The notes under the pieces were generated by a model. The model ran no database searches. It saw only the letters and a list, made by a program, of their open reading frames with translations, and had not been told where the DNA came from. Shown piece after piece: positions 1,842 through 16,892 of a DNA stretch of 38,570 nucleotides (positions within the stretch are counted from its first letter, which is position 1; each line of letters begins with the position of its first letter). Made by a program: the position numbers and the translations under genes. The stretch comes from Desulfobacterales bacterium (GTDB lineage Bacteria > Desulfobacterota > Desulfobacteria > Desulfobacterales > C00003060), in contig JABXJW010000008.1 in assembly GCA_013375395.1 (NCBI GenBank), positions 1 to 38,570 on the forward strand. Direction: 5' to 3'.

Positions 1842-4800
1842 TCAATTGTTTGCTCTGTAGCTCCTCGCCTTCCTTCGGTACAACGAAACAAGGCAAACTG
1901 GAATTACAAGAAGAACCACAACCATACTTAACGTAATTACTGGACCAAAACGAACTGTGGAGTAACTGATAGCCACCAAGGGAATGAAACCGAACCGGAC
2001 CGCGGCTTTCAATGATTCATGCCCCTTTATGTAATCAGCAAAAGGCGGCGAGACTTCATAGTAAGATCTCACGAACCTTCTTCCCACTGAGTTCTTCAGC
2101 AAGATATTATCACGGAACTCTTTCAGGGTTACAATATCGTCTGCCATATTGGAGCCGTAGGCTGCTGTGGCGATAAAGCAGCCACCACCGCCGGTGTCGT
2201 CGCTTGGCGGGGTAGGAGCGGGACTGCTAGCTCCACCTGCTTGGACGCCTGTGAAATGATACAGCTTGATCTTAATGGTTGGAGGACTGGTGTCCTGGTG
2301 GTTCGCCCTTGAACCATGCACCATGCCAGTGGCATCGGATGCCAGTACCCAGGCCGTACCGTTGTACAAGTAAACGCTCAGGTTGCTTACGTCTGTGTGG
2401 CCTGGGCAGGGGATGAAGACCTTCACTGGGGTGTTGAACACAGTTGGCGGTTGGAGATTCATAGGAACTCCAACGGCATCCACACCGGCTTCATCAAACG
2501 GTGGAAGTTCATCTATAGGCCCTAAGATCGGTTGCACCGGCTCGCTGTTGTCGTAGATAATCTTTGCACCTTCCAGATCGCCGCTGGTTACCTCAATACC
2601 AACAGCATCTATATAATCAGGATCATCAAGGGCAGGGTCATCGTCTGCTACAGGCACAGTGTCTGGCGAGTTGGTTTCAGCATTGGCGTGTTCCGTTTCC
2701 GTTTCAATGTTGAAATCGTAACTGGTTTGCGTCATCCAGTCGCCTCTTCTATCTTTGGCATCGACCCCAATATTGATATTAGTGTCATATGAGTAATTTC
2801 CAAGGATATCTTTAGACCTGTCGTATACCGCCCAAAGTTTGGTTACCCGTGTATCCTCGTCCTCAGTAAGCTTCACCACTCTAACAACCGTAGTATCACT
2901 TAAATCTCGTGTGTATTTGTCATTGTTGACATCATCGACATCATCGTTGATTGTGAACATGATGCTGGATGTGTCCGTAATGTCTATTCCATCTGCATCC
3001 TCAATGCGCACGGCAAAGGAAGTGTCATTGGGAACGCGGGTGCTGTCATCTATCCCCGCATTGTGGTGAGGATTGGTTTCCTTTACCTCAGGGGGTGTGA
3101 GCACCGGAGAGGTATCGTCAGCCGGATCTGTGCTGTTGACATATTCCTCGTAATTCGTCCACGAGTCATTATCGAAATCGTCTTCAGGATTAACACCTTC
3201 TAAGGAATCTATGTCATCATTTGGGTCAGCGTTAATAATTTGTTGTTCCCACCAGTCGGGGAGGTTATCTGGTTCAGAGTCATATGTTTCATACAGCCCT
3301 ATGAAGCTCTGAGAAGCCCGGGCACTATTTAAGGGCGAGTAGGACCGAAAAGCTGGGAAGAAATGGTAATCTGTCAAAGAAGGTGTCACCGTGTAGTAGC
3401 CTTCCTCCAAGTCAGTGAAACTATAGTCACCGCTTGCTTGTGGGTATGTGGTCTGACTTGATGCTCCACTTAAAGTCAATAGAACGTCCGCACCACTGGC
3501 AGACCCTCCGCTAAGAGTTATTTCTCCGGCAATGCTATAAGTTGTGACATAAGGAAAAGTGACCAGCACCTGCCCGCCCATGAAGTCATCTTGGGTCATC
3601 GTGAAAACGTTCAGCCCCTGACTGAGCGTCCCTGACATGTCAACTGTGGTATAGCCCGTGAACTGTCCGCTGTGACTCCAAACTGAAGTGTCGCCTTTCT
3701 TGAGGTTGACGTTTGATGGATGAAGATCGTTATCCCAAAGGTTCAGGTCGAACAGTTCCATTGAATTTGTGTCTGCGCCCGCTGGCACATCAATTTGAAT
3801 GAGTTGAGGCGACCAGCGGTCATACAGACGGTAGCCATCCCCGTTGGAATCAACAAAAGCTGATATCACACCAATGTTTTGATTTGGCAAATACGCGTTT
3901 TGTCTTGCGGGGAAGGCAAGTGTATCATCATCATTCAAGACCAGTAGATTGCCGCCCTCTCTTGCCCAAATGTACCCATCTTTGTCGCAGAAGACGAACT
4001 GCCTACCGCCTGAAAGGAGTACAGGGCCTTTCCAGATGTTACCGTCAGGGCCAATAATACTGTAGTAGTATTCATACGGCTGGTCCGACTGGTAGTGTTC
4101 AAAACTGACCCAGACTTTACCTTCATTATCAGTCAAAGCACTGGTGAACTGATACTCATCATTTTTTTCAAGGGTGTCAGGCAACAATGGTGGGTTAAGG
4201 GTTGTACTTGCTTTGACTATAGCCCCATTCGCGTCGCGGACTTGATAGCGTATCTCCTTGCGATCATCCGGCCCAGTAGTAGTCTCCCAGTAATGATTGA
4301 ACAAGAAGACTGTTTTTGTACCCAAGGTCCGAACAAATTTACAATTCAAATCCCCTGAGTTTGTCCGAGGTACGGATTCAAAGACTGTTCTTGGTACTAT
4401 TTCATTTCCATCCGAATCATGTAACACAAACCATAAGTCCGATGTGTTTGCCCCGCCGTTGTAAGTTTTACCGGTGACGTAGAGACCATTATCAAGGGCA
4501 TACTGTGGACAGTCAATAAATGTATCTTCCCGAAAATTTCCGTCAAAGGAATTTACCGTGTTACCAGCCAAATCGAATATTTCGAGTGCATAACGGTGGC
4601 TTTGAATGTCTTCATAGTCGCCACCTCCGCCTATCCTCTCATACTCTTCCTCTTCCCATATAAGACATACATTTGGTCCAAGTTGCAGTATGTATCCTTG
4701 TACAATGCCAACATCGCATGCGTAGAAACCATTGAAAGGAGTCCCTTGTAAGCGCTGATGAAGTCTTTCATCGATGATAGAAGCATTTTGATCTGCCACG

Positions 4801-7616
4801 TCCATAAACGCCCACGCTATCGTACTACCCCACACACCACTAACGCGATTGCGCTTTTTTGAAGCTAGTCGCCAGAGGTGATGATTTTCATCCAGAAACG
4901 TTCCTTCGATGTGACTGGTGTAACCTGGTTCCGTATTGAAGTTCGGGAAACCGGGCGGTATGTCTACGAATTCCTGCCACCCGAAGTACTCAATCTTTCC
5001 CCAAACGATATCGTATTGCATAGTCTGACCAGAAGGGATGCTGTCTGGCAACGTAACCAGCCAACCGGTCCCAACCTTTGAAATTCTCACTGTCAGGCCC
5101 AATTCGGTAGCGACCATTTCGTTGGCCCCACAGGGCACGATTTCGTCTGCACGATGAATTCGCACTGGAACAAGTTCGAAATCACTCATGCCGGAATGTT
5201 CGGGTAACAGGACGAAAGTGTCGGTTGGGTGAATAGCTTCGGTTGGCATTTCCAGCGTCACGCGGCTCGCCCATACGCTTTTGTCGACCCGAACGGCTGA
5301 AACCACCGTTGGCGCGGCATTGACGACAAAGTCGTAACTGGCAGGTGCCTCGTTGATGTTCCCCGCTGCGTCTTTACCCCGAACCCAGAATGTATAAGTA
5401 CCGTTTGGCAGGTCATACGCTTTCGATGTATCTGGTGTCCAAGCTGAACAATCAGAGTCCACCCCGTCAAGTTTATACTGATAAAAAAGATTTGAGGTAT
5501 GTGAGACATCGTCCGACCCGGTCCATGAAAACGACACGGAGGAATCCTCGCTGACCGAAGGCGGAACGGTTACGAACGATGTAATGGGGGCCGATTCATC
5601 AGAGGGGTAAGCAACGATATCCTGTTCCGTTTTGTTCGCCCTTAAATTGTTGAACACTAACGTCGCTGGGCCGAAGTCGTATCCGGGTGCGGAGGGAGTC
5701 ACCGAAACCGAAACGCCTCCCTTGACACCAGTGAAGGAAAAACTGCCATCGTCTGTGTGATGCGTGAGTGTTTGTTCAGAACTGCTCAGCGTCAGGTCGA
5801 TGCCTCCGGGAACAGGTACTCCATCGTTCCTGAGCGCCGTCCCGCTAATTGTATAGTTTACCGGCGTGTATGAAAGATATGCCGTTGCATGGATATTTCC
5901 GCTGAGTAGGGTAAATCCGTAACCGGAAGCTGTGCTTTCCCTCACAATGTTTCCTTCGTCGTCGCGAAATACCCACTTCGTAAAGGAATGACTTTCCGAC
6001 TCGGTAGAAACTGAAAACATCAACTGTTGCCCGGAATCAATACCTAAATACTTGGGGAGTGCGGGTGCGGACCATAACTGATATTTCAAATTGTGCAAGT
6101 CAGGCCCATGCTCAAATCGGATCTCTATGTTATTCGTTATAGGGCCACCAGACACTACTACCCGTAACTCCACATAGCTTTCGCTTGTATGTACGATGGG
6201 ACCTGAATAAATCGGTGATAATGCAAAGCCAGCGTACCTGTCAATAAAAGAGAAAAAGTAATTGTGTGTGCCCGCCTGTAATTGCGTTTGAAACGCGTAT
6301 GTCCCGTATGAGGGCGTTCCACTCTTAAGAGTCATGGTGTACGGACCAATTCCATCAATATATAAATCCCTATGAATTTCAGGCGCATCACCGTCTTGAT
6401 CGTAATAGTCCACCAAGAATTCAAATGTGTTATCGGGATTGCCCGAGCTTGGTACCACGCGGGGATTAGATAAAACTGGACTGTGTTTGGGGCGGACAAC
6501 AAACGAGTGATTACCCTTTGCTGGCCAATGGCCATTCTTGGAGGCTGAAATAATCACTTGGTACGTGCCTGGTTGTGTCGGTGCAGTGAGACCCGAAACA
6601 TATGAACCTGAGGCTTGGGAATAGTTACAACTACCATCCGCAGTCCAAACATGACGATACCCACTGGCCGCATCAGCATCAGGCACAAGTCTAAAGATTG
6701 TGTACTCCACTTGAGCATCTGAAACATTGTTTCCAGACTCATTCAAGACGTGAATTGCGAATGAAATCGAATCTCCAGGATCGCAAAGACTGGGGAACTG
6801 CGGATTCAATAATTGCAGAGCGTTTGTCAAAGAATTGACCAGCGTGATTCGTACCTCCCTCAGGCTGAGTTGCCCCCCATAATGAGCCCAAGACCTAGTT
6901 CCCCCCTCTTGGATTATGACAGCCTGTGGGGACCAGCTCCATGAATATGTACAGCCTTGCGTGAAGATGACTTCATCACAACTAATTGTGATGCTGGTTG
7001 GTTCAAGTATGCGGGGTGATAAAGCGTTAAATGGAAGACCTACCGGAACGTGAAAAATTCGCTCATTGGCATTGAAGAGGTCCCCCACGTTATAGGTGGC
7101 ATTCCAAAGTTCTACGTTGATATCGAAGTTGGTCGATATAAGGCCGAGGCCGTACTGGTACCATGAATAGAAATTCCAGACGTCATTTGCTGTTGTCCCT
7201 AGTCCTAGGAGAAGGGGTATACCTTCGATGGCTCCACCTAGCGCAGCAGATACTATGCCGCCCACTGTGGGAACTAGTCCATCACTGTATCCGCTCCATT
7301 CAAGTCCAGATTCACAGATCCACTCTACCTTGTAAATGCCTGTTTGGTTACATGTGTACGAACCCAGGAATCCAGTGCCCACGATCGCCGCAAAACCTTT
7401 GTCGCCTTCGTTACTGCCAACATCGAACGTAATTGTCCCATTGTTTGAATTCACGGAGATGTTTGGATCGGATGTAAATGAGGAGGGATACTTCGTGATC
7501 CCTATTGTTCCTGCATCATATGGGGGAGAGAAAGTCTCACAAAACGCCAGATTGGACAGAGCTGTAACCTGCATTGCAAACAGAAGGATAAGAGCCATCA
7601 ATCCTTTGCTTTTCAT
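1842..7616 (-). CDS. Giant secreted multidomain surface protein with CFI-box C-terminal anchor
   Basis: A 1924-residue exported protein. Residues 1-27 form a signal peptide ending near LAFC. Ig/FN3-like beta domains follow at about 270-390 and 690-790 (WVRGKDAAGN). Two carboxypeptidase-regulatory-like domains lie near 580-660 (YTISGTALRNDGVPV) and 1360-1430 (YSIAGEITLSGG). A long beta-rich, WD/propeller-like central region runs from about 850 to 1300. A calcium-binding, thrombospondin-3/dockerin-like stretch is near 1455-1490 (DDFDNDSWTNYEEYVNSTDP). A domain like the choice-of-anchor U type follows at about 1680-1790. The end carries the CFI-box signal (GGGGCFIATAAYGS near 1810), a hydrophobic helix at about 1885-1908 and a basic tail (RRKAR). 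The CFI-box architecture is known from deltaproteobacterial surface proteins and suggests sorting or lipidation at the Cys. AGGGAAATAAGG precedes ATG 7616. The upstream GEMM riboswitch suggests control by a cyclic dinucleotide. Ligand or adhesive target is unknown. Confidence 0.85.
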   Translation of the reverse strand: MKSKGLMALILLFAMQVTALSNLAFCETFSPPYDAGTIGITKYPSSFTSDPNISVNSNNGTITFDVGSNEGDKGFAAIVGTGFLGSYTCNQTGIYKVEWICESGLEWSGYSDGLVPTVGGIVSAALGGAIEGIPLLLGLGTTANDVWNFYSWYQYGLGLISTNFDINVELWNATYNVGDLFNANERIFHVPVGLPFNALSPRILEPTSITISCDEVIFTQGCTYSWSWSPQAVIIQEGGTRSWAHYGGQLSLREVRITLVNSLTNALQLLNPQFPSLCDPGDSISFAIHVLNESGNNVSDAQVEYTIFRLVPDADAASGYRHVWTADGSCNYSQASGSYVSGLTAPTQPGTYQVIISASKNGHWPAKGNHSFVVRPKHSPVLSNPRVVPSSGNPDNTFEFLVDYYDQDGDAPEIHRDLYIDGIGPYTMTLKSGTPSYGTYAFQTQLQAGTHNYFFSFIDRYAGFALSPIYSGPIVHTSESYVELRVVVSGGPITNNIEIRFEHGPDLHNLKYQLWSAPALPKYLGIDSGQQLMFSVSTESESHSFTKWVFRDDEGNIVRESTASGYGFTLLSGNIHATAYLSYTPVNYTISGTALRNDGVPVPGGIDLTLSSSEQTLTHHTDDGSFSFTGVKGGVSVSVTPSAPGYDFGPATLVFNNLRANKTEQDIVAYPSDESAPITSFVTVPPSVSEDSSVSFSWTGSDDVSHTSNLFYQYKLDGVDSDCSAWTPDTSKAYDLPNGTYTFWVRGKDAAGNINEAPASYDFVVNAAPTVVSAVRVDKSVWASRVTLEMPTEAIHPTDTFVLLPEHSGMSDFELVPVRIHRADEIVPCGANEMVATELGLTVRISKVGTGWLVTLPDSIPSGQTMQYDIVWGKIEYFGWQEFVDIPPGFPNFNTEPGYTSHIEGTFLDENHHLWRLASKKRNRVSGVWGSTIAWAFMDVADQNASIIDERLHQRLQGTPFNGFYACDVGIVQGYILQLGPNVCLIWEEEEYERIGGGGDYEDIQSHRYALEIFDLAGNTVNSFDGNFREDTFIDCPQYALDNGLYVTGKTYNGGANTSDLWFVLHDSDGNEIVPRTVFESVPRTNSGDLNCKFVRTLGTKTVFLFNHYWETTTGPDDRKEIRYQVRDANGAIVKASTTLNPPLLPDTLEKNDEYQFTSALTDNEGKVWVSFEHYQSDQPYEYYYSIIGPDGNIWKGPVLLSGGRQFVFCDKDGYIWAREGGNLLVLNDDDTLAFPARQNAYLPNQNIGVISAFVDSNGDGYRLYDRWSPQLIQIDVPAGADTNSMELFDLNLWDNDLHPSNVNLKKGDTSVWSHSGQFTGYTTVDMSGTLSQGLNVFTMTQDDFMGGQVLVTFPYVTTYSIAGEITLSGGSASGADVLLTLSGASSQTTYPQASGDYSFTDLEEGYYTVTPSLTDYHFFPAFRSYSPLNSARASQSFIGLYETYDSEPDNLPDWWEQQIINADPNDDIDSLEGVNPEDDFDNDSWTNYEEYVNSTDPADDTSPVLTPPEVKETNPHHNAGIDDSTRVPNDTSFAVRIEDADGIDITDTSSIMFTINDDVDDVNNDKYTRDLSDTTVVRVVKLTEDEDTRVTKLWAVYDRSKDILGNYSYDTNINIGVDAKDRRGDWMTQTSYDFNIETETEHANAETNSPDTVPVADDDPALDDPDYIDAVGIEVTSGDLEGAKIIYDNSEPVQPILGPIDELPPFDEAGVDAVGVPMNLQPPTVFNTPVKVFIPCPGHTDVSNLSVYLYNGTAWVLASDATGMVHGSRANHQDTSPPTIKIKLYHFTGVQAGGASSPAPTPPSDDTGGGGCFIATAAYGSNMADDIVTLKEFRDNILLKNSVGRRFVRSYYEVSPPFADYIKGHESLKAAVRFGFIPLVAISYSTVRFGPVITLSMVVVLLVIPVCLVSLYRRKARSYRANN

Positions 7617-8220: not shown

Positions 8221-8243
8221 GGTGACTTTTACGATGTCACACT

Positions 8244-8360
8244 CGGCAGCTCGGCTATCTTCGGACAGAAACTCAGCTAAACCCGCAACAACAGGAAAAT
8301 ATAAAGACCCGTGGCTTTCCGCCCCCCACCTCACGATGGGTTTGGCTTTATCAATTTTCA
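8244..8360 (-). ncRNA. Class-I (GEMM) cyclic-di-GMP-type riboswitch aptamer
   Basis: The minus strand contains the family's landmarks in order: GCCAAACC, a short P2 hairpin (ACCCATC GTGA GGTGGGG), the GCGGAAAGCCACGGGTC block, a longer P3 arm, and the 3' receptor-like segment AGATAGCCGAGCTGCC. In known GEMM RNAs the corresponding blocks are GCAAACC, a GNRA-capped P2, GCAAAGCCxCGGG and GGTAGCxGGGTTACC. The next genes on this strand are a small putative secreted protein and a 1924-residue surface protein, which fits known GEMM control of extracellular proteins. The nucleotide aligned to Vc2 G20 appears to be G, which favours c-di-GMP over cGAMP, but the alignment by eye is not certain there. Confidence 0.8.
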
Positions 8361-8755: not shown

Positions 8756-8776
8756 CTTGCCACTGTACGTAACAAA
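8756..8776. repeat. Left end of the two-recombinase element: 7-bp direct repeat plus inverted repeat
   Basis: CTTGCCA (8756-8762) is followed immediately by CTGTACGTAACAAA (8763-8776). The latter matches the reverse complement of the right-end 14-mer at 13 of 14 positions, and CTTGCCA recurs exactly outside the right end. In a tyrosine recombinase system this reads as a 7-bp crossover core next to a recombinase-binding arm. Confidence 0.7.
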
Positions 8777-8852
8777 ATGATGGTTGACCTTTGAGGGATC
8801 AAGGGTCAGTATCTGCTTGGTTTTTCTAGCAAAAGGACGAAAGGAGGCAGAT

Positions 8853-10043
8853 ATGACCCTTGAGCAAATTGACCCCCAAAACTACAGATTACTTAGACCA
8901 TGTGAATGTGTTGATCTCTATGAGATCGGTGAAGTTCCCTCCCTGTATAGCCCCGTAACGCCCGAAATTCAACCCCTGGATTGGCCTGTTGAAAAAGCCA
9001 AGGAAATGGTCCCAGAGCCCAGACGGCAAGCGTTTGACCATTTGCTGGGCAAGCTTCATGGCAAGCAGTTCATAGGTATGGACTATGCCGAGGAGTACTT
9101 GCGCGATCAATACCGGCGAGGTTGCCGTGCCAACACTATGCGAAGCAGCTCAAAGGGGATCGAGTTGTTTTTGAACTTTCTGACACAAGCCGGCAAGATG
9201 AGCCTGGATCAAATCGTTCGTGAAGACCTGTATGGGTTCATAGAGCGCGAACAAGACCGTGGTTTGAAGCCTCGGACCGTGGACACAAGGCTGAAGGCTG
9301 TAAAGGCTTTCTTGCGATTTTTGATCGACCAAGAACTGGTTCATCACCGATTGTTGTCGAGAAGGATCACCGTCAAGGTGCCTGAGTCGCTGCCTCGCGC
9401 CATCGACCCGGACGAGGTCGGGAAGCTGCTATCAGTGATCAAACACGTTCGCAACCGAGCGATGATCTTGGTGCTGTTGAGAACGGGCATGAGGATCGGA
9501 GAGTTGCTCAACACCAAGGTCGGTGATGTTAACTTGAAAGAGCGAAGAATCGAGATCTTCGAGGCGGAGAAGAATCGGGTTGGAAGGGTAGTCTATTTGA
9601 GTGATGACGCCCTCAGTGCCTTGAGCCGGTGGTACAAAAAGCGTGATTCCCACAAGGACTTTGTCTTTTATGCAATGGGTCGCCGCACCATGACTTATCA
9701 AGGTGCCCGAGCAATGTTTAACAAATACCTGGCTGAGGCCGGTCTGGCCGATAAAGGATATTCCTTGCACTGTTTGCGGCACACCTTTGCCAGTGAGTTA
9801 TTAAATGCAGGGATGCGTCTGGAGTGCGTACAGCAACTGCTCGGACACAGCTGTATCGAGATGACCAGGCGCTATGCCCGGCTTACAGACAAAACGCGGG
9901 AAGAGGAATACTTCCGAGCTATGTCTATCATAGAAAAGGGGGAGATCGATGGCCATTATCGATTCGATAATCCATTACAGGCGGTTTCTGAAAAGACGCA
10001 ATTGTTCAGCCCACACAGTGAAGAACTACATGAACACCCTTAA
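8853..10043 (+). CDS. Tyrosine recombinase A of the mobile element
   Basis: A 396-residue site-specific recombinase. A SAM-like N-terminal DNA-binding domain spans about residues 75-180 (AEEYLRDQYRRGCRANTMR), with a catalytic domain at about 190-375. Visible catalytic residues are Arg in RTGMRIGEL, His-x-x-Arg in HCLRHTFAS, His in LGHSC and the nucleophilic Tyr in RRYARL; the strand Lys is probably in EAEKNRVGR. About 70 unfamiliar N-terminal residues precede the usual fold. ATG 8853 is chosen for AAAGGAGGCAG immediately upstream; an upstream in-frame ATG at 8784 lacks a site. Its 3' end overlaps the next recombinase gene by 95 bp, implying coupled translation and probably joint action at the two element arms. 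Confidence 0.85.
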   Translation: MTLEQIDPQNYRLLRPCECVDLYEIGEVPSLYSPVTPEIQPLDWPVEKAKEMVPEPRRQAFDHLLGKLHGKQFIGMDYAEEYLRDQYRRGCRANTMRSSSKGIELFLNFLTQAGKMSLDQIVREDLYGFIEREQDRGLKPRTVDTRLKAVKAFLRFLIDQELVHHRLLSRRITVKVPESLPRAIDPDEVGKLLSVIKHVRNRAMILVLLRTGMRIGELLNTKVGDVNLKERRIEIFEAEKNRVGRVVYLSDDALSALSRWYKKRDSHKDFVFYAMGRRTMTYQGARAMFNKYLAEAGLADKGYSLHCLRHTFASELLNAGMRLECVQQLLGHSCIEMTRRYARLTDKTREEEYFRAMSIIEKGEIDGHYRFDNPLQAVSEKTQLFSPHSEELHEHP

Positions 10044-10830
10044 GCACTTTGTCGTGTGGCTGAATGTGCCTGTGGAGCAGGCAACGCACAAGAAGATCCA
10101 GGCGTACATCGATCACCTTCGAGCAAAGAGATTGGCCCCAAAGACCATCAATTGCCATTTGGACAGCATCCGCGGGTTCTATGACTACCTGCGCTATGAG
10201 GAGGAAATCCCCATCACCAACCCCGTCAAAAGAGGCTATGCTCAGCGGCTATCAAGGCCTCTTCCCAGATATCTGAGGGATGAGGAGGTTGTCGTATTGC
10301 TTAACGCTATCGGCAACAGGCGGGACCAGGCCATGTTCCGCCTCATGCTGCGATCCGGCTTGCGAGTTGAAGAGATAGCCAATCTCAGGCTCAGGGCCAT
10401 AGATGCAAAGCGCAGGCGCATCGTCGTAGAAAACGGCAAGGGAGCAAAGGACAGGCTGGTCTACATTAGCGATGATGCTCTAAGGACCCTTGGGCAATAT
10501 CTGAAGGTGAGGCCCCCATCAAGATCAGGGAAGGTGTTCCTGGTTCAAAAAGGTCCTCACACAGGAAAGCCTATCTCGGTGCGTGGGATCCAGAAACGCA
10601 TAGAATACTACGCGAAGAAAACAGGCCTGAAAGTGTCATGCCATCACTTGAGACATACGATGGCTACCCAATTGCTCAATGCGGAAGCCGATCTTGTCAC
10701 CATCCAGGATCTGTTAGGACATACACGGATCAAAACCACTCAACGCTACTGCAAGGTGTCGAACTTGAAAGTAGAGAGAGATTACTTCAAGGCCATGGAA
10801 CGGGTGATGAGAAGAACTACTGCATACTAA
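9949..10830 (+). CDS. Tyrosine recombinase B of the mobile element (XerC/D-like)
   Basis: A 293-residue recombinase with standard XerC/XerD length and organisation. The core-binding domain is at about residues 1-90 (YRRFLKRRNCSAHTVKNY), with the catalytic domain at about 105-290. All catalytic residues are visible: Arg in RSGLRVEEI, Lys in GKGAKDRLVYI, HxxR in HHLRHTMAT, His in LGHTR and Tyr in QRYCKV. AAAAGGGGGAG precedes ATG 9949. It overlaps the first recombinase gene by 95 bp in a different frame. It is clearly different from recombinase A, so the pair could form a heterotetramer like XerC-XerD. It does not look like the host Xer protein, because it sits within a bounded element. Confidence 0.88.
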   Translation: MAIIDSIIHYRRFLKRRNCSAHTVKNYMNTLKHFVVWLNVPVEQATHKKIQAYIDHLRAKRLAPKTINCHLDSIRGFYDYLRYEEEIPITNPVKRGYAQRLSRPLPRYLRDEEVVVLLNAIGNRRDQAMFRLMLRSGLRVEEIANLRLRAIDAKRRRIVVENGKGAKDRLVYISDDALRTLGQYLKVRPPSRSGKVFLVQKGPHTGKPISVRGIQKRIEYYAKKTGLKVSCHHLRHTMATQLLNAEADLVTIQDLLGHTRIKTTQRYCKVSNLKVERDYFKAMERVMRRTTAY

Positions 10831-10832
10831 CA

Positions 10833-10887
10833 AGCTGCCATGGGAGGCGGAGGCGTAGCCGGAGGCCCTCCCATGGCTCTCACAGCT
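10833..10887 (+). repeat. Large hairpin after the recombinase genes
   Basis: AGCTG-CCATGGGAGG (10833-10847) pairs with CCTCCCATGG (10867-10876) and, after a 6-base bulge, CAGCT (10883-10887). The inner loop adds GGC-GTA-GCC. There is no T-tract, so a simple intrinsic terminator is unlikely. It may protect the mRNA or serve as a folded-strand recombinase site. Confidence 0.65.
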
Positions 10888-10928
10888 CGTGAAAGGAGGT
10901 GGTAAGGTTGACACACCTAAAGCAGGCC

Positions 10929-10957
10929 TTGACAAGACGCCTGTTCTTTGATATTGT
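10929..10957 (+). promoter_or_regulatory. Outward-facing sigma70-like promoter near the element's right end
   Basis: TTGACA, a 17-base spacer and TATTGT match the sigma70 consensus well. Transcription would leave the element about 45 bases later and run antisense to the neighbouring HDAC-family gene. Confidence 0.5.
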
Positions 10958-10998
10958 TAACACAACCTAACCAATTGAACCTGCTAGAAAAACCAGCC

Positions 10999-11019
10999 TT
11001 TGTTACGTATAGCTTGCCA
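10999..11019. repeat. Right end of the two-recombinase element: inverted repeat plus 7-bp direct repeat
   Basis: TTTGTTACGTATAG (10999-11012) is the reverse complement of the left terminal repeat at 13 of 14 positions. It is followed directly by CTTGCCA (11013-11019), identical to the bases flanking the left end. Confidence 0.7.
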
Positions 11020-11100
11020 GAATCGTAACTTGTTGAAATTTAAAGATAGCAAAGCCAAATCGAAAGTGCAATCAGCCTCTTTTCCATTCGCCTCAGTGGA

Positions 11101-12180: not shown

Positions 12181-12540
12181 ATGGAGATAACAAAACAGAA
12201 ATCAATTGTTTGGGTGGGGTCTTCCCGCCAAGATTTAAAGAAATTTCCCCGCGATGTCCAAAGAAATGTTGGTTTTGCCCTTTACAGGGCACAAATTGGA
12301 AAGCAACATCATAATACCAAACCACTAAAAGGATTGAGCGGTGTTATGGAAATAGTCACTTCCTATGCCACAGACACATACAGAACTGTGTATGCAGTAA
12401 AGCTCGGGGACAATATTTACGTGCTCCACTCATTCAAGAAGAAATCGAAGAAAGGAGCGAAAACCCCAAAGCTTGAAATAGACATCATTAAACAACGGTT
12501 CCAAAGAGCAAAAGAATTGGCAAAGGAGAAGACAAAATGA
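12181..12540 (+). CDS. higB: HigB/Gp49-like toxin of a type II toxin-antitoxin pair
   Basis: A 119-residue protein of the phage Gp49-like/HigB (RelE-fold) family, whose members cleave mRNA on the ribosome. Family features seen are SSRQDLKKFPRDVQRNVGFAL near residues 15-35, the PLKGLSG turn at about 48, the strand pattern Y..DTYRTVYAVKLGDNIYVLHSF at 60-83 and the basic FKKKSKKGAKTP that follows. The basic patch with YR and HSF is typical of the active surface. The following XRE-type gene starts inside its stop region (ATGA, 4-bp overlap), giving the toxin-first order of higBA loci. No clear Shine-Dalgarno sequence is seen before ATG 12181. Confidence 0.85.
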   Translation: MEITKQKSIVWVGSSRQDLKKFPRDVQRNVGFALYRAQIGKQHHNTKPLKGLSGVMEIVTSYATDTYRTVYAVKLGDNIYVLHSFKKKSKKGAKTPKLEIDIIKQRFQRAKELAKEKTK

Positions 12541-12869
12541 GCGACGAGATTGAATATTTGGAAGGATCAGGAAATGTGTTTGAGGATTTAGGATTTGATA
12601 ACCCGGAAGAAGAATTAGCGAAAGCTAAGCTTGCTTCAACGATATATGATATTATTCAGGATCGAAAATTAACTGAAAAAGAAGCAGGGGTTATTCTTGG
12701 AATTAGTCAATCTAAAGTATCCGCCCTTAAAGATGGGAAGTTGGCTGGCTTCTCAATAGAGCGTCTGTTTTCTTTTCTGCGAGCGCTTGACCAGGATATT
12801 GACATTGTTATCCACCCAAAATCAGAAAACAAATCTAGTGGAATCAATGTGACGACCGCTTATGCCTAA
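12537..12869 (+). CDS. higA: HigA-like XRE-family antitoxin
   Basis: A 110-residue helix-turn-helix protein. The HTH is at about residues 40-75 (LTEKEAGVILGISQSKVSALKDGKLAGFSIERL), followed by LRALDQDIDIVIHPK, a C-terminal strand characteristic of the HigA2/nineteen-like antitoxins. An acidic N-terminal segment of about 30 residues could wrap the toxin. It overlaps the toxin gene by 4 bp, so translation is coupled. In known pairs the antitoxin binds the toxin and represses the operon. The functional pairing is inferred from order and overlap. Confidence 0.85.
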   Translation: MSDEIEYLEGSGNVFEDLGFDNPEEELAKAKLASTIYDIIQDRKLTEKEAGVILGISQSKVSALKDGKLAGFSIERLFSFLRALDQDIDIVIHPKSENKSSGINVTTAYA

Positions 12870-13265: not shown

Positions 13266-16200
13266 TCACGGCCTCTCATGGCCAGCAGGAATTTTTTCCC
13301 TATAGACCTTATGACTCTCCGGGGGCTGGGTTTCAGGACCTGAGGACTTTCCACGTAGTTTTCGCATCGAGGCTTTAGCGTCTTCCCATGGCTCCCCAAC
13401 GAATCCACTTGCTCCAAAAGAAAACTCGGTCTTTCCGTGGGCCAGCTCGTCGGTTGCTCTCCAGACATTATGGAGTCCTTGCATATAGAATTTGTTGTAC
13501 ATTTCGCTATCAAGTGTCCCATCCGGCCGAGCCGCTTTTTCTCTTGCCTCGCTTTGCATTCTCCGTACCATACCGTAGTATAGGTTGTAGTTGTGATCCT
13601 CGATATTTTTTCTTCCTATCTGAACAGACCCTGTAGCTTTTGCGCCCAGGCCCAACAGACCCTCAGCGGGAGTTCCGATCTTTAGTGTACCCCTTCCGTC
13701 CACATTGGTAAAAGTTGTAGTATTCCCGGTGCGGCTAACAATACTGCTGAGTGACTGTGAAAAGGCCTGGGCCTGCCTTACCTCCTCCATCTCCCTGCTT
13801 GCCACGGTAACGGCTCCAGATATCCTGTCGCCGAGTACAGGATTCTTTGCAATAACCGCACTGAGCATGTCAGTTGATGCTATTTCGGGGCCGGTCATCA
13901 AACGAGACTTATCTATGAACGTCGTGGCATCCATACCACCTTCGATATGGGTCCTCACGGCTTTGCCGGTATTCGGATCGATCTTCTCCACTACGAACGC
14001 TTCAGGGCCAGCGGTTTCCCTGAGCACCACATCTCCTGTCGAGGCCCTGTAGCCTCCCTTACCTTCGATTCCGACAACTGCGCCTTCGGGTGTGGACAGG
14101 ATAGTGTATTTTCCGGCAGGTCCCGCCTTGCCTGTAATTGATTTCACCTTGTCTTCAGTTAAGCTTCTTACCTCACTTGCGTAGTTTGCGTTCGACAGTA
14201 CCACACCTTCCTTTGTCGTCAGCAGCGAAGACTGAAGGTGACCGGCCTTGTCTGTCCACACGTTCATTTGTGCTGTTGCGCCGGCCAGTTTGTTGGCATC
14301 AACTGATTTACCCTGGCTGGCGAACCATTTGCTGAAGTTCTCCGCCTCCTCGGGCTTGATTATCCTGTCGCCGATTCCTTGAGAGGCAAGCATTGCACGG
14401 CCGACGGGGTCTTGCCCTATGTTCCTCAAAAGCTTTTGGGTCTCCGTGGACATGCGGCCCGTGGCGCCAATCTCGTCCAGCCCTTTTCTTATCGCCATCT
14501 TGGAAGTCTCATTATAGAGCTTGCCCGACTCCCTGAGATACTCCGCCGAGAGCCCTGCATTTTTTACATAGTTGTAGCTGCCCATTTTCTGCATTGCCTG
14601 TGCCCTGGCCTGAAGGCTTCCTATGTCTTCTATGCTCACATCCCTGGCCCCGGCCTGCTCTGACAATTCCTTGATCATGTGAACGTTCTGGCTTTGCTGA
14701 TATTCGGCCCTGTCTTTGAGGAAATCAGAAACGTTGCCGTATCCTGCTTCAGTTGCAATCGTCTCCAACTGGCTCTTGTCTTGAAAACTCTCGAGGCTGT
14801 CTACTTTGGCCTGCATTCCGACGTAGTCGTTGATGTCACCGCGAAATCCTGCACTTTTTGCCATGTCGAAGGCTTGCTTCAGGCCCTGGAAGTTGCCGAT
14901 CCTGGCCGTTTCCATGAGTTGCATGGTGTCAAGCGAGGTTTTCAAGCCAAGACCGTCGCGCAGTGTTTCAATCGCCGTTGCTCTTGAAAACCGGGACTCT
15001 ACGCCAAATTTTTGTATGGCACGCTGCACGTCGTCTTCTGTGACGGCAGTGGCACGCGCTATGGTTTGTATCTGCTCGTGCTTAAAGACGCTATCTGCGG
15101 CCTGCATGGCCGCGGCCCCGCCCGTTTTCACGGCAGCGCCTCCAGGAGACCCGCCACCAACCCTGTCTACAGTTTGGAGGCCGGCCTCGGTACCTGACCT
15201 GATCTTGTAGCTCCCGGCTGCTCCACGCTGGTGAAAAGAGTAGTCGTTTGCCCAGGCCTGCGTGGGATAGGCTTCGCTGATACCCCGCTGGTATGCGGCT
15301 CGCCTGGTAGGTTCACCCTGTGATGTGAGTTCGGCAGCGACCCTTCCGTGAGAACCGGCAGCAATGGAGCTGCGATGAATCATGTGCGCGAAAGCAGACC
15401 CGCCGAACTTCATAAGCATAGCGCACATGGCCCCTGCCATGGAGAGTGCCATCAGGCGCGAAGCGCCGAACGCAGCCATGGCTTTGTACGACTCGTTTTC
15501 AAACAGCAACATTGACTTCAGGCCCAGTTGTCCCTCGGTTATTTCCCTGAAAGTATTTGCTGCGTAATCCATGGCAGTGCTGTGGACGATGGCGTCACAT
15601 ATTCCCCATGAGCCAAGAAAGAAAAAACTGCCGAGGATGAAGGTCAACGCCCGGGGAAATAAGGGTGTAGGAATCAGCAGAAAAAGAAAGGGCATGAGAC
15701 CCAAAAATATTGCGTAGTAACCTCCCTTTATTATGGGCAGCCATTCGTTGAGCATGATGCCTGCCCCTATCATGTCAACGCCTTTTCTATAGCTTCCTAC
15801 GGTTTTAACGACTTCATCAGGAGCGCCTTCCTGAATCACCCTGTCAAGCTCGCTCGCTATCAGGTACTGGCGCAGCAACCGGTCAGAGGTTGTTGCCACG
15901 CCGAGCAGGGACGAAACCAGGCTGTTTATCTTATCCTTACACACCGTCTCAATCGGCAGCCCGCCATAAGCCGCATAGTTTCTTTGAGCGAGATCCGCCC
16001 GGGCACATTTATGCGTCCAGAACGTTCCGACCGTAGCGCTTGCCGCAGTCAGGCCGGTCAGATACGGATTGAGAAAGTTTTGCCAGTCCTGCCGGCAGGA
16101 CAGAGAGATACCATTCGGATTGGCTGCATCGTACCAGACGGTAAAGATCGCAGGGCTGGCGGCTGACGCAAGAATTGGCACGAAATCAGTATTTATATTG

Positions 16201-16892
16201 ATGTCATTGACGTTGATGGTGCTTCCCGGTCTTCCGACTTCGAATAAAAAGCAATCTTCTATGTATCGTCTGAGCGACATATTGACATATTTGCCTGTCG
16301 CTTGATTGGGATCGACCATAGACAGGTCCACTCCATTGCTGAAAGCCTTATTGATAATGTCAAAACCTATGCCTCCGGCCTCCTCTCTGAAGCCCTCGAT
16401 GTTGCCGGCTGTCCATATCATCTCGACGATTCCGGATTCTATCTTGTTAATCAGCCCGGCCAGAAAAGCAACGCCATCAGGGACCCCTCCGACGGATTTG
16501 AACTTGCCGCCTATGGTCTCGTCCGTGACGAGAACCGTGGTAGTATTTCTGATGAACGCGTGATACACGATTATCCCGCAGAGAAGTGTTCCAAAGAGGT
16601 AAGCCCAGATGAGAGCCGAAATCTTGCCGCCTGTCAGCGATTTTGCGAGAAGTGTCAATCCCCCGCCCACAAGCATCATGACAATGATTCCGAAGAAAAG
16701 ACCCTGGTAGTTTGCATCTGACATGACCAGAGCCAGACGCTCGAGCGCGTTTACGACATAGGGCAGCTCTCCGTACACCTTGATTGTCTTGAGCGTGTTG
16801 GGAATATCGGCATAAGCACGTGCCGGCACGAAAAGAGCCGCGAGAGCGAAACTAAAGAAGAGTAACGTGAGTGCTTTCCGGATTTTTGGCAT
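13266..16892 (-). CDS. traG: TraG-like mating-pair stabilisation protein of an F-type T4SS
   Basis: A 1208-residue inner-membrane and periplasmic protein of the F-type conjugation apparatus. The N-terminal region matches TraG_N: signal/TM1 at residues 8-28, further TM helices near 55-75, 88-108, 385-440 and 470-500, with a cysteine-containing periplasmic loop between about 120 and 380. The C-terminal 600 residues are soluble, alanine-rich and helical with repeated Gln/Glu/Ala segments, and may extend into the recipient or act in exclusion, as for F TraG. It is longer than F TraG (938 residues), mainly in the soluble part. It starts 9 bases after traH and is the last gene of the operon. Confidence 0.85.
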   Translation of the reverse strand: MPKIRKALTLLFFSFALAALFVPARAYADIPNTLKTIKVYGELPYVVNALERLALVMSDANYQGLFFGIIVMMLVGGGLTLLAKSLTGGKISALIWAYLFGTLLCGIIVYHAFIRNTTTVLVTDETIGGKFKSVGGVPDGVAFLAGLINKIESGIVEMIWTAGNIEGFREEAGGIGFDIINKAFSNGVDLSMVDPNQATGKYVNMSLRRYIEDCFLFEVGRPGSTINVNDININTDFVPILASAASPAIFTVWYDAANPNGISLSCRQDWQNFLNPYLTGLTAASATVGTFWTHKCARADLAQRNYAAYGGLPIETVCKDKINSLVSSLLGVATTSDRLLRQYLIASELDRVIQEGAPDEVVKTVGSYRKGVDMIGAGIMLNEWLPIIKGGYYAIFLGLMPFLFLLIPTPLFPRALTFILGSFFFLGSWGICDAIVHSTAMDYAANTFREITEGQLGLKSMLLFENESYKAMAAFGASRLMALSMAGAMCAMLMKFGGSAFAHMIHRSSIAAGSHGRVAAELTSQGEPTRRAAYQRGISEAYPTQAWANDYSFHQRGAAGSYKIRSGTEAGLQTVDRVGGGSPGGAAVKTGGAAAMQAADSVFKHEQIQTIARATAVTEDDVQRAIQKFGVESRFSRATAIETLRDGLGLKTSLDTMQLMETARIGNFQGLKQAFDMAKSAGFRGDINDYVGMQAKVDSLESFQDKSQLETIATEAGYGNVSDFLKDRAEYQQSQNVHMIKELSEQAGARDVSIEDIGSLQARAQAMQKMGSYNYVKNAGLSAEYLRESGKLYNETSKMAIRKGLDEIGATGRMSTETQKLLRNIGQDPVGRAMLASQGIGDRIIKPEEAENFSKWFASQGKSVDANKLAGATAQMNVWTDKAGHLQSSLLTTKEGVVLSNANYASEVRSLTEDKVKSITGKAGPAGKYTILSTPEGAVVGIEGKGGYRASTGDVVLRETAGPEAFVVEKIDPNTGKAVRTHIEGGMDATTFIDKSRLMTGPEIASTDMLSAVIAKNPVLGDRISGAVTVASREMEEVRQAQAFSQSLSSIVSRTGNTTTFTNVDGRGTLKIGTPAEGLLGLGAKATGSVQIGRKNIEDHNYNLYYGMVRRMQSEAREKAARPDGTLDSEMYNKFYMQGLHNVWRATDELAHGKTEFSFGASGFVGEPWEDAKASMRKLRGKSSGPETQPPESHKVYREKIPAGHERP

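Follow-up and report, generated by a model that had tools for sequence, protein, structure and literature searches.

A two-recombinase element that looks mobile and lies at a dispersed attC-like repeat in Desulfobacterales

The window (the whole analysed stretch of 38,570 nucleotides) contains an element of 2250 bp, from 8763 to 11012, whose content is two intact, overlapping tyrosine recombinase genes, A and B, enclosed by inverted terminal arms (Table 1). The overlap of 95 bp, the near-perfect 14-bp inverted ends and the CTTGCCA just outside each of them had been pointed out in the initial annotation of this DNA, and all of them stand. A second, subterminal inverted repeat goes beyond what had been noted there. 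A longer version of A, starting at TTG 8784, is unlikely. Near the right end there is a promoter-like sequence that would point outwards; the number of such matches across the whole region was not above that of shuffled sequence. In the end alignment of the relatives, about 10 of the 17 right ends have an outward-pointing -35 box, TTGAC(A), and a TTGAC box also lies inside the left end. A GC-rich palindrome, GCCATGGGAGG..CCTCCCATGGC (10836-10880), lies 3' of the B stop codon and was also seen in L012, not in other relatives.

Table 1. The element, its ends and the site that holds it (window positions)
Feature	Position	Strand	Remarks
Left 7-bp core CTTGCCA	8756..8762	+	Host side of the left junction; same as right copy
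Left terminal arm CTGTACGTAACAAA	8763..8776	+	13/14 inverted match to 10999-11012; kept in relatives
Left subterminal inverted repeat TGGTTTTTCTAGCA	8818..8831	+	14/14 to 10982-10995; in relatives CTGYTTTTTCTA / TAGAAAAARCAG
Recombinase A gene	8853..10043	+	396 aa, N-terminal extension of ~80 aa; ATG 8853, preceded by AGGAGG Shine-Dalgarno
Recombinase B gene	9949..10830	+	293 aa, simple (Xer-like); ATG 9949; 95-bp overlap with A
Outward promoter-like TTGACA-17-TATTGT	10929..10957	+	Putative
Right subterminal inverted repeat TGCTAGAAAAACCA	10982..10995	+	14/14 partner of 8818-8831
Right terminal arm TTTGTTACGTATAG	10999..11012	+	13/14 complementary to left arm; kept in relatives
Right 7-bp core CTTGCCA	11013..11019	+	Same as left copy
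attC-like dispersed site holding the element (core and right half)	11013..11071	+	78.3 bits with model R2, built from this site itself and 10 others

A c-di-GMP-I-GGC riboswitch (8241-8355, minus strand, 64 bits against a gathering threshold of 59), repeated in many relatives, is located upstream of the gene for a putative surface protein of 1924 aa (1842-7616, minus strand). On the other side, a Gp49/HigB-like and HTH antitoxin-like gene pair (12181-12869, plus strand) adjoins a histone-deacetylase-type gene, and conjugation-type genes are also found in the window, e.g., for a TraG_N protein of 1208 aa (13266-16892, minus strand).

Both A and B match PF00589 with the complete set of R-K-H-R-H-Y catalytic residues and are thus tyrosine recombinases; the sequence leaves no doubt about their fold. 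Their scores against the integron integrase profile TIGR02249 were 73.5 (A) and 114.5 bits (B) for a cut-off of 265, and those against the XerC and XerD equivalogs 152-204 bits for cut-offs of 330-335. The A and B families matched each other at 212 bits, while the best reference tried reached only 130, and they form separate clades with broadly matching branching orders, so that A and B are likely a duplicated pair working together, perhaps with one recombinase for each arm.

A genome scan provided about 20 distinct A/B pairs, in metagenome-assembled genomes (MAGs) of Thermodesulfobacteriota, Myxococcota, Pseudomonadota and Nitrospirota (labelled as Desulfobacterales, Deltaproteobacteria, some of them placed in Myxococcota, Pseudomonadota and Nitrospirota); MAG data are the source of all the evidence on this family. 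The distribution is patchy, with B detected at E<=1e-70 in 10 of the 395 genomes of the phylum of the window. The initial annotation had proposed looking for the same ends around other such pairs, and nearly all intact pairs with readable ends did turn out to be bounded by CT[AG]TACGTAACA...TGTTACGTA[TC]AG or a variant of it (CTGTACGACATAAA in G395 and G397), with a 7-bp repeat outside. No recognised ends were found at L011/L026, where A is incomplete, nor at L019 and L022. In the aligned ends both the arms and the subterminal CTGYTTTTTCTA / TAGAAAAARCAG are conserved, and the gene pair, its overlap and its ends are kept across several phyla. Complete copies measure 2034-2551 bp, which leaves no space for a third recombinase or for cargo, and the claim that the element has two genes, no third and no cargo extends to every complete copy. 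The genome of the window has a single copy, and recent identical copies were not seen; relatives were absent from viral contigs with the patterns used, from phages at 1e-30 and from plasmids at 1e-40. In a Nitrospirota MAG (L013, JAJDBX010000017.1, after 4252), a truncated B copy adjoins an apparent CRISPR array.

Both ends were found in 13 copies, 12 of them with two full 7-mers (L008, at a contig end, was not counted). The 7-mers were identical at both junctions in 9 of the 12, where about 0.001 identical cases would be expected by chance (4^-7 each), and these nine carry six different sequences: CTTGCCA (window, L003 and L020), CTACTAT (L005), CATCTAC (L009), CACCTAC (L010 and L027), TGTCATA (L105) and TGCCATA (L106). 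Relatives show the same ends and the 7-bp core again, so the repeats in the window are not due to chance. The cores of the other three copies are mismatched, 6/7 in L021 and in L025 and only partly shared in L007 (CATCCGA/CATCTTA). An incoming circle is known to leave coupling or footprint sequences in SE and Tn554 elements (PMC10214605), and these mismatches may be what such sequences would leave.

Insertion does not occur at random. All four copies in the genus of the window (window, G413, G395 and G397, the last two in a divergent version of the target recognised by eye) lie at the same position, the core, of a dispersed repeat of ~60 bp that we call the site; this repeat nature of the target had not been anticipated in the initial annotation. 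The covariance model detected the site in 18 of the 22 genomes of the genus, a single genome having as many as 24 matches at E<=1; the A/B pair is present in 4 of the 22. Of the two hairpins that the site might form as a folded single strand, as attC does, the first had little support on 11 sites and modest covariation on 55, and the second had none. By inspection, the GTTRRRY R box is absent at the crossover, where the junction is CTTGCCA / TGGCAAG. Outside the genus, a dispersed repeat that begins at the core or within a few bases of it forms the target flank in G450, G192, G286, G454 and G009 (in G009 with repeats on both sides of the element); for L007, L010 and L005 the evidence of a repeat target is weak or absent.

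A joined-flank search of the relatives recovered the same locus, beside the histone-deacetylase-type gene, in G409, G399 (two copies) and G411. In all of them homology to the right flank begins at window position 11012/11013, i.e., at the core, and the left sides are unrelated in each. With G000:C469, G412, G414 and G396 the window shares only ~55 bp, from the core onward. The expectation that an unoccupied site should have a single CTTGCCA was borne out in part: there are genomes of the same genus with an element-free site, one CTTGCCA and right homology starting at the core. The left flank, however, differs in every relative, so no relative offers an empty site that matches on both flanks.

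An all-against-all comparison of 76 site loci showed that unrelated DNA adjoins the sites both left and right, with the combinations swapped between loci. Blocks conserved to the right start at the core, for example in G000:C469 and G399:C219, in G414:C518 and G396:C87, and in G408:C168 and G412:C259, although right-start boundaries are favoured in this comparison because the sites were picked by their right half. Blocks conserved to the left (G399:C300 with G414:C518, among others) stop either between core +7 and +12 or where the site ends, and one toxin-type left block is common to G414:C25, G399:C219 and G411:C94, which have three different right sides. No second core marks the end of a conserved block. 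Genes on the left are directed away from the site in 50 of 58 cases, and those on the right towards it in 40 of 60. This two-sided swapping resembles what is found at cassette junctions, and gene segments appear to be exchanged at the sites. We do not claim that every site marks a gene cassette, as many are beside large ordinary genes and the blocks end without a second core. A boundary of the rolling-circle (IS91) type, prompted by the CTTG tetranucleotide, is disfavoured by the swapping on both sides of the core.

Three element-free sites carry next to their core, at exactly the spacing of the element, a perfect copy (11/11 bp) of an element arm, the left one in G399:C63 and G414:C25 and the right one in G409:C309. 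The next best arm match among the other sites has 4-5 mismatches, and the shifted-position controls gave none. Of these, G399:C63 is the same histone-deacetylase site that is occupied by the element in the window. The simplest reading would be that the arms are footprints, left by an element that resided there and was later lost; alternatively, these could be full-strength native sites of the same enzymes. The sequence to the left of the core is also more similar to the right arm than is sequence at shifted positions. Mobility, which the initial annotation could only infer, is indirectly supported by sequence comparison, through the unoccupied sites, the footprints and the unrelated contexts of insertion.

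A 7-bp core flanked by inverted arms is how a tyrosine recombinase site is built. We consider it quite probable that this is a minimal autonomous two-recombinase element, which would be excised as a circle and enter attC-like sites by strand exchange over 7 bp. The gene pair, the ends, the 7-bp repeats, the family, the target repeats, the unoccupied sites and the footprints are the observations behind this reading. A and B, duplicated and coadapted, would bind the inverted terminal arms, possibly one each in the manner of XerC/XerD, with the subterminal repeats as accessory sites, and would cut on either side of the core. The excised circle would have an arm-core-arm junction, across which transcription from the putative outward promoter of the right end might enter A, and would be inserted at host sites whose core 7-mer is the same or almost the same. 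Its preferred targets would be the dispersed attC-like repeats, which would also be the junctions of exchanged gene segments, and the pair might have some role in cassette shuffling.

Within this preferred reading there is the matter of who owns the sites. One conceivable refinement, to which we would give somewhat less than even chances, is that they belong to another integrase, IntI or some other, and that the element parasitises them as a specialist. Models for such a lifestyle are IS1111-attC elements and group IIC introns, both of which act on attC. The known mobile elements that target integron sites (PMC11187229, PMC7923331) count in favour, together with the mostly uniform orientation of the sites relative to genes and the integron integrases above the curated cut-off in four genomes of the genus (G000:C390, G399:C92, G401:C11 and G398:C20), with fragments in others. 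However, no site-model match was found beside the IntI genes scanned, G398 has IntI and lacks sites, and by inspection the site ends do not show the usual GTTRRRY. Within the genus neither the A/B pair nor the integron integrases track with the sites. Two other recombinase genes are worth recording here: at L138 (G411:C142) a separate IntI-like one starts about 200 bp from a site, and a similar one in G000:C487 adjoins a gene resembling an IS91-type transposase.

The other possibility, a rather unlikely one, is that the pair is the integrase of its own cassette-shuffling system, integron-like with two recombinases, so that the element would be the enzyme cassette and the dispersed sites the cassette sites. 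The swapping of partners on both sides of the core would fit, as would the core common to element and sites (with exact arms too in three cases), the likeness of the sequence left of the core to the right arm, and G450, which has the pair and many sites and no integron integrase match, as is also the case in G395 and G397. Against this, the pair is missing from most genomes of the genus that have sites (it is present in 4 of 22, sites in 18), many sites adjoin large ordinary genes, a second core is not always found where a block ends, and the arms are nearly constant while the sites differ between lineages. If true, this would be a second, non-IntI gene-cassette system, with its recombinase pair on a mobile cassette of its own and its sites across the chromosomes of uncultured bacteria.

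Whoever owns them, the target sites make up a class of hot spots for recombination, present in uncultured Thermodesulfobacteriota and their relatives, at which gene segments are apparently swapped at a 7-bp core. The element itself, at 2 kb and free of cargo, would be among the smallest tyrosine-recombinase transposon units and a clean system for studying how two recombinases divide one site.

A degenerate RIT or Tn554-type element that has lost its third gene seems highly improbable to us: RIT typically has three adjacent, overlapping recombinases, and A (396 aa) is close in size to RitA (398 aa), but all the complete copies lack a third gene or any remnant of one, and neither the A nor the B family is as close to RitA/B/C or the Tn554 proteins as the two are to each other. 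We can practically discard a static chromosomal Xer-like pair with repeats arising by chance, as in spite of the similarity of the proteins to XerC/XerD/XerA the scores are under the Xer cut-offs, the pair is patchy (10 of 395 genomes) and found at different loci, and the junction repeats and footprints contradict it.

The element would work in the manner of the tyrosine recombinase transposons. It is not a RIT, a Tn554 or an integron, and appears to be a small mobile element of a kind not described before. The five groups of prokaryotic tyrosine-recombinase transposons counted in a 2023 study are all larger or have more genes (PMC10214605), and in the mainly open-access literature searched we found no description of a two-recombinase element without cargo. 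RIT elements share with it the adjacent overlapping tyrosine recombinase genes, the terminal inverted repeats and the little or no cargo, but have three genes in about 3.5 kb instead of two in 2.0-2.5 kb (PMC3414803; PMC10214605). Unlike RIT, our element has 14-bp ends, a 7-bp core and an attC-like target; no complete copy has the ritA-B-C trio, and A and B form groups of their own in a comparison with few RIT references and long branches. Tn554 and its actinobacterial relatives also have two tyrosine recombinases and a short end-adjacent core copied between sites; their large recombinase (about 600 aa), TnpC and cargo are all absent here, where 396 and 293 aa proteins are everything that is encoded. 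SEs and GInts have inverted end motifs around a short spacer and use tyrosine recombinases only, but carry Tfp/GinC, Srap/GinD and cargo, whereas there is no further gene in our element and its 7-bp core is mostly identical on both sides (PMC10214605). The bipartite module (BIM) is likewise a two-gene unit with a tyrosine recombinase, but its second gene is not a recombinase (PMC3414803). Finally, integrons and the attC-targeting elements (IS1111-attC and group IIC introns) have in common with it a palindromic target family at gene-segment junctions, but the enzymes here are two tyrosine recombinases and the sites are not canonical attC.
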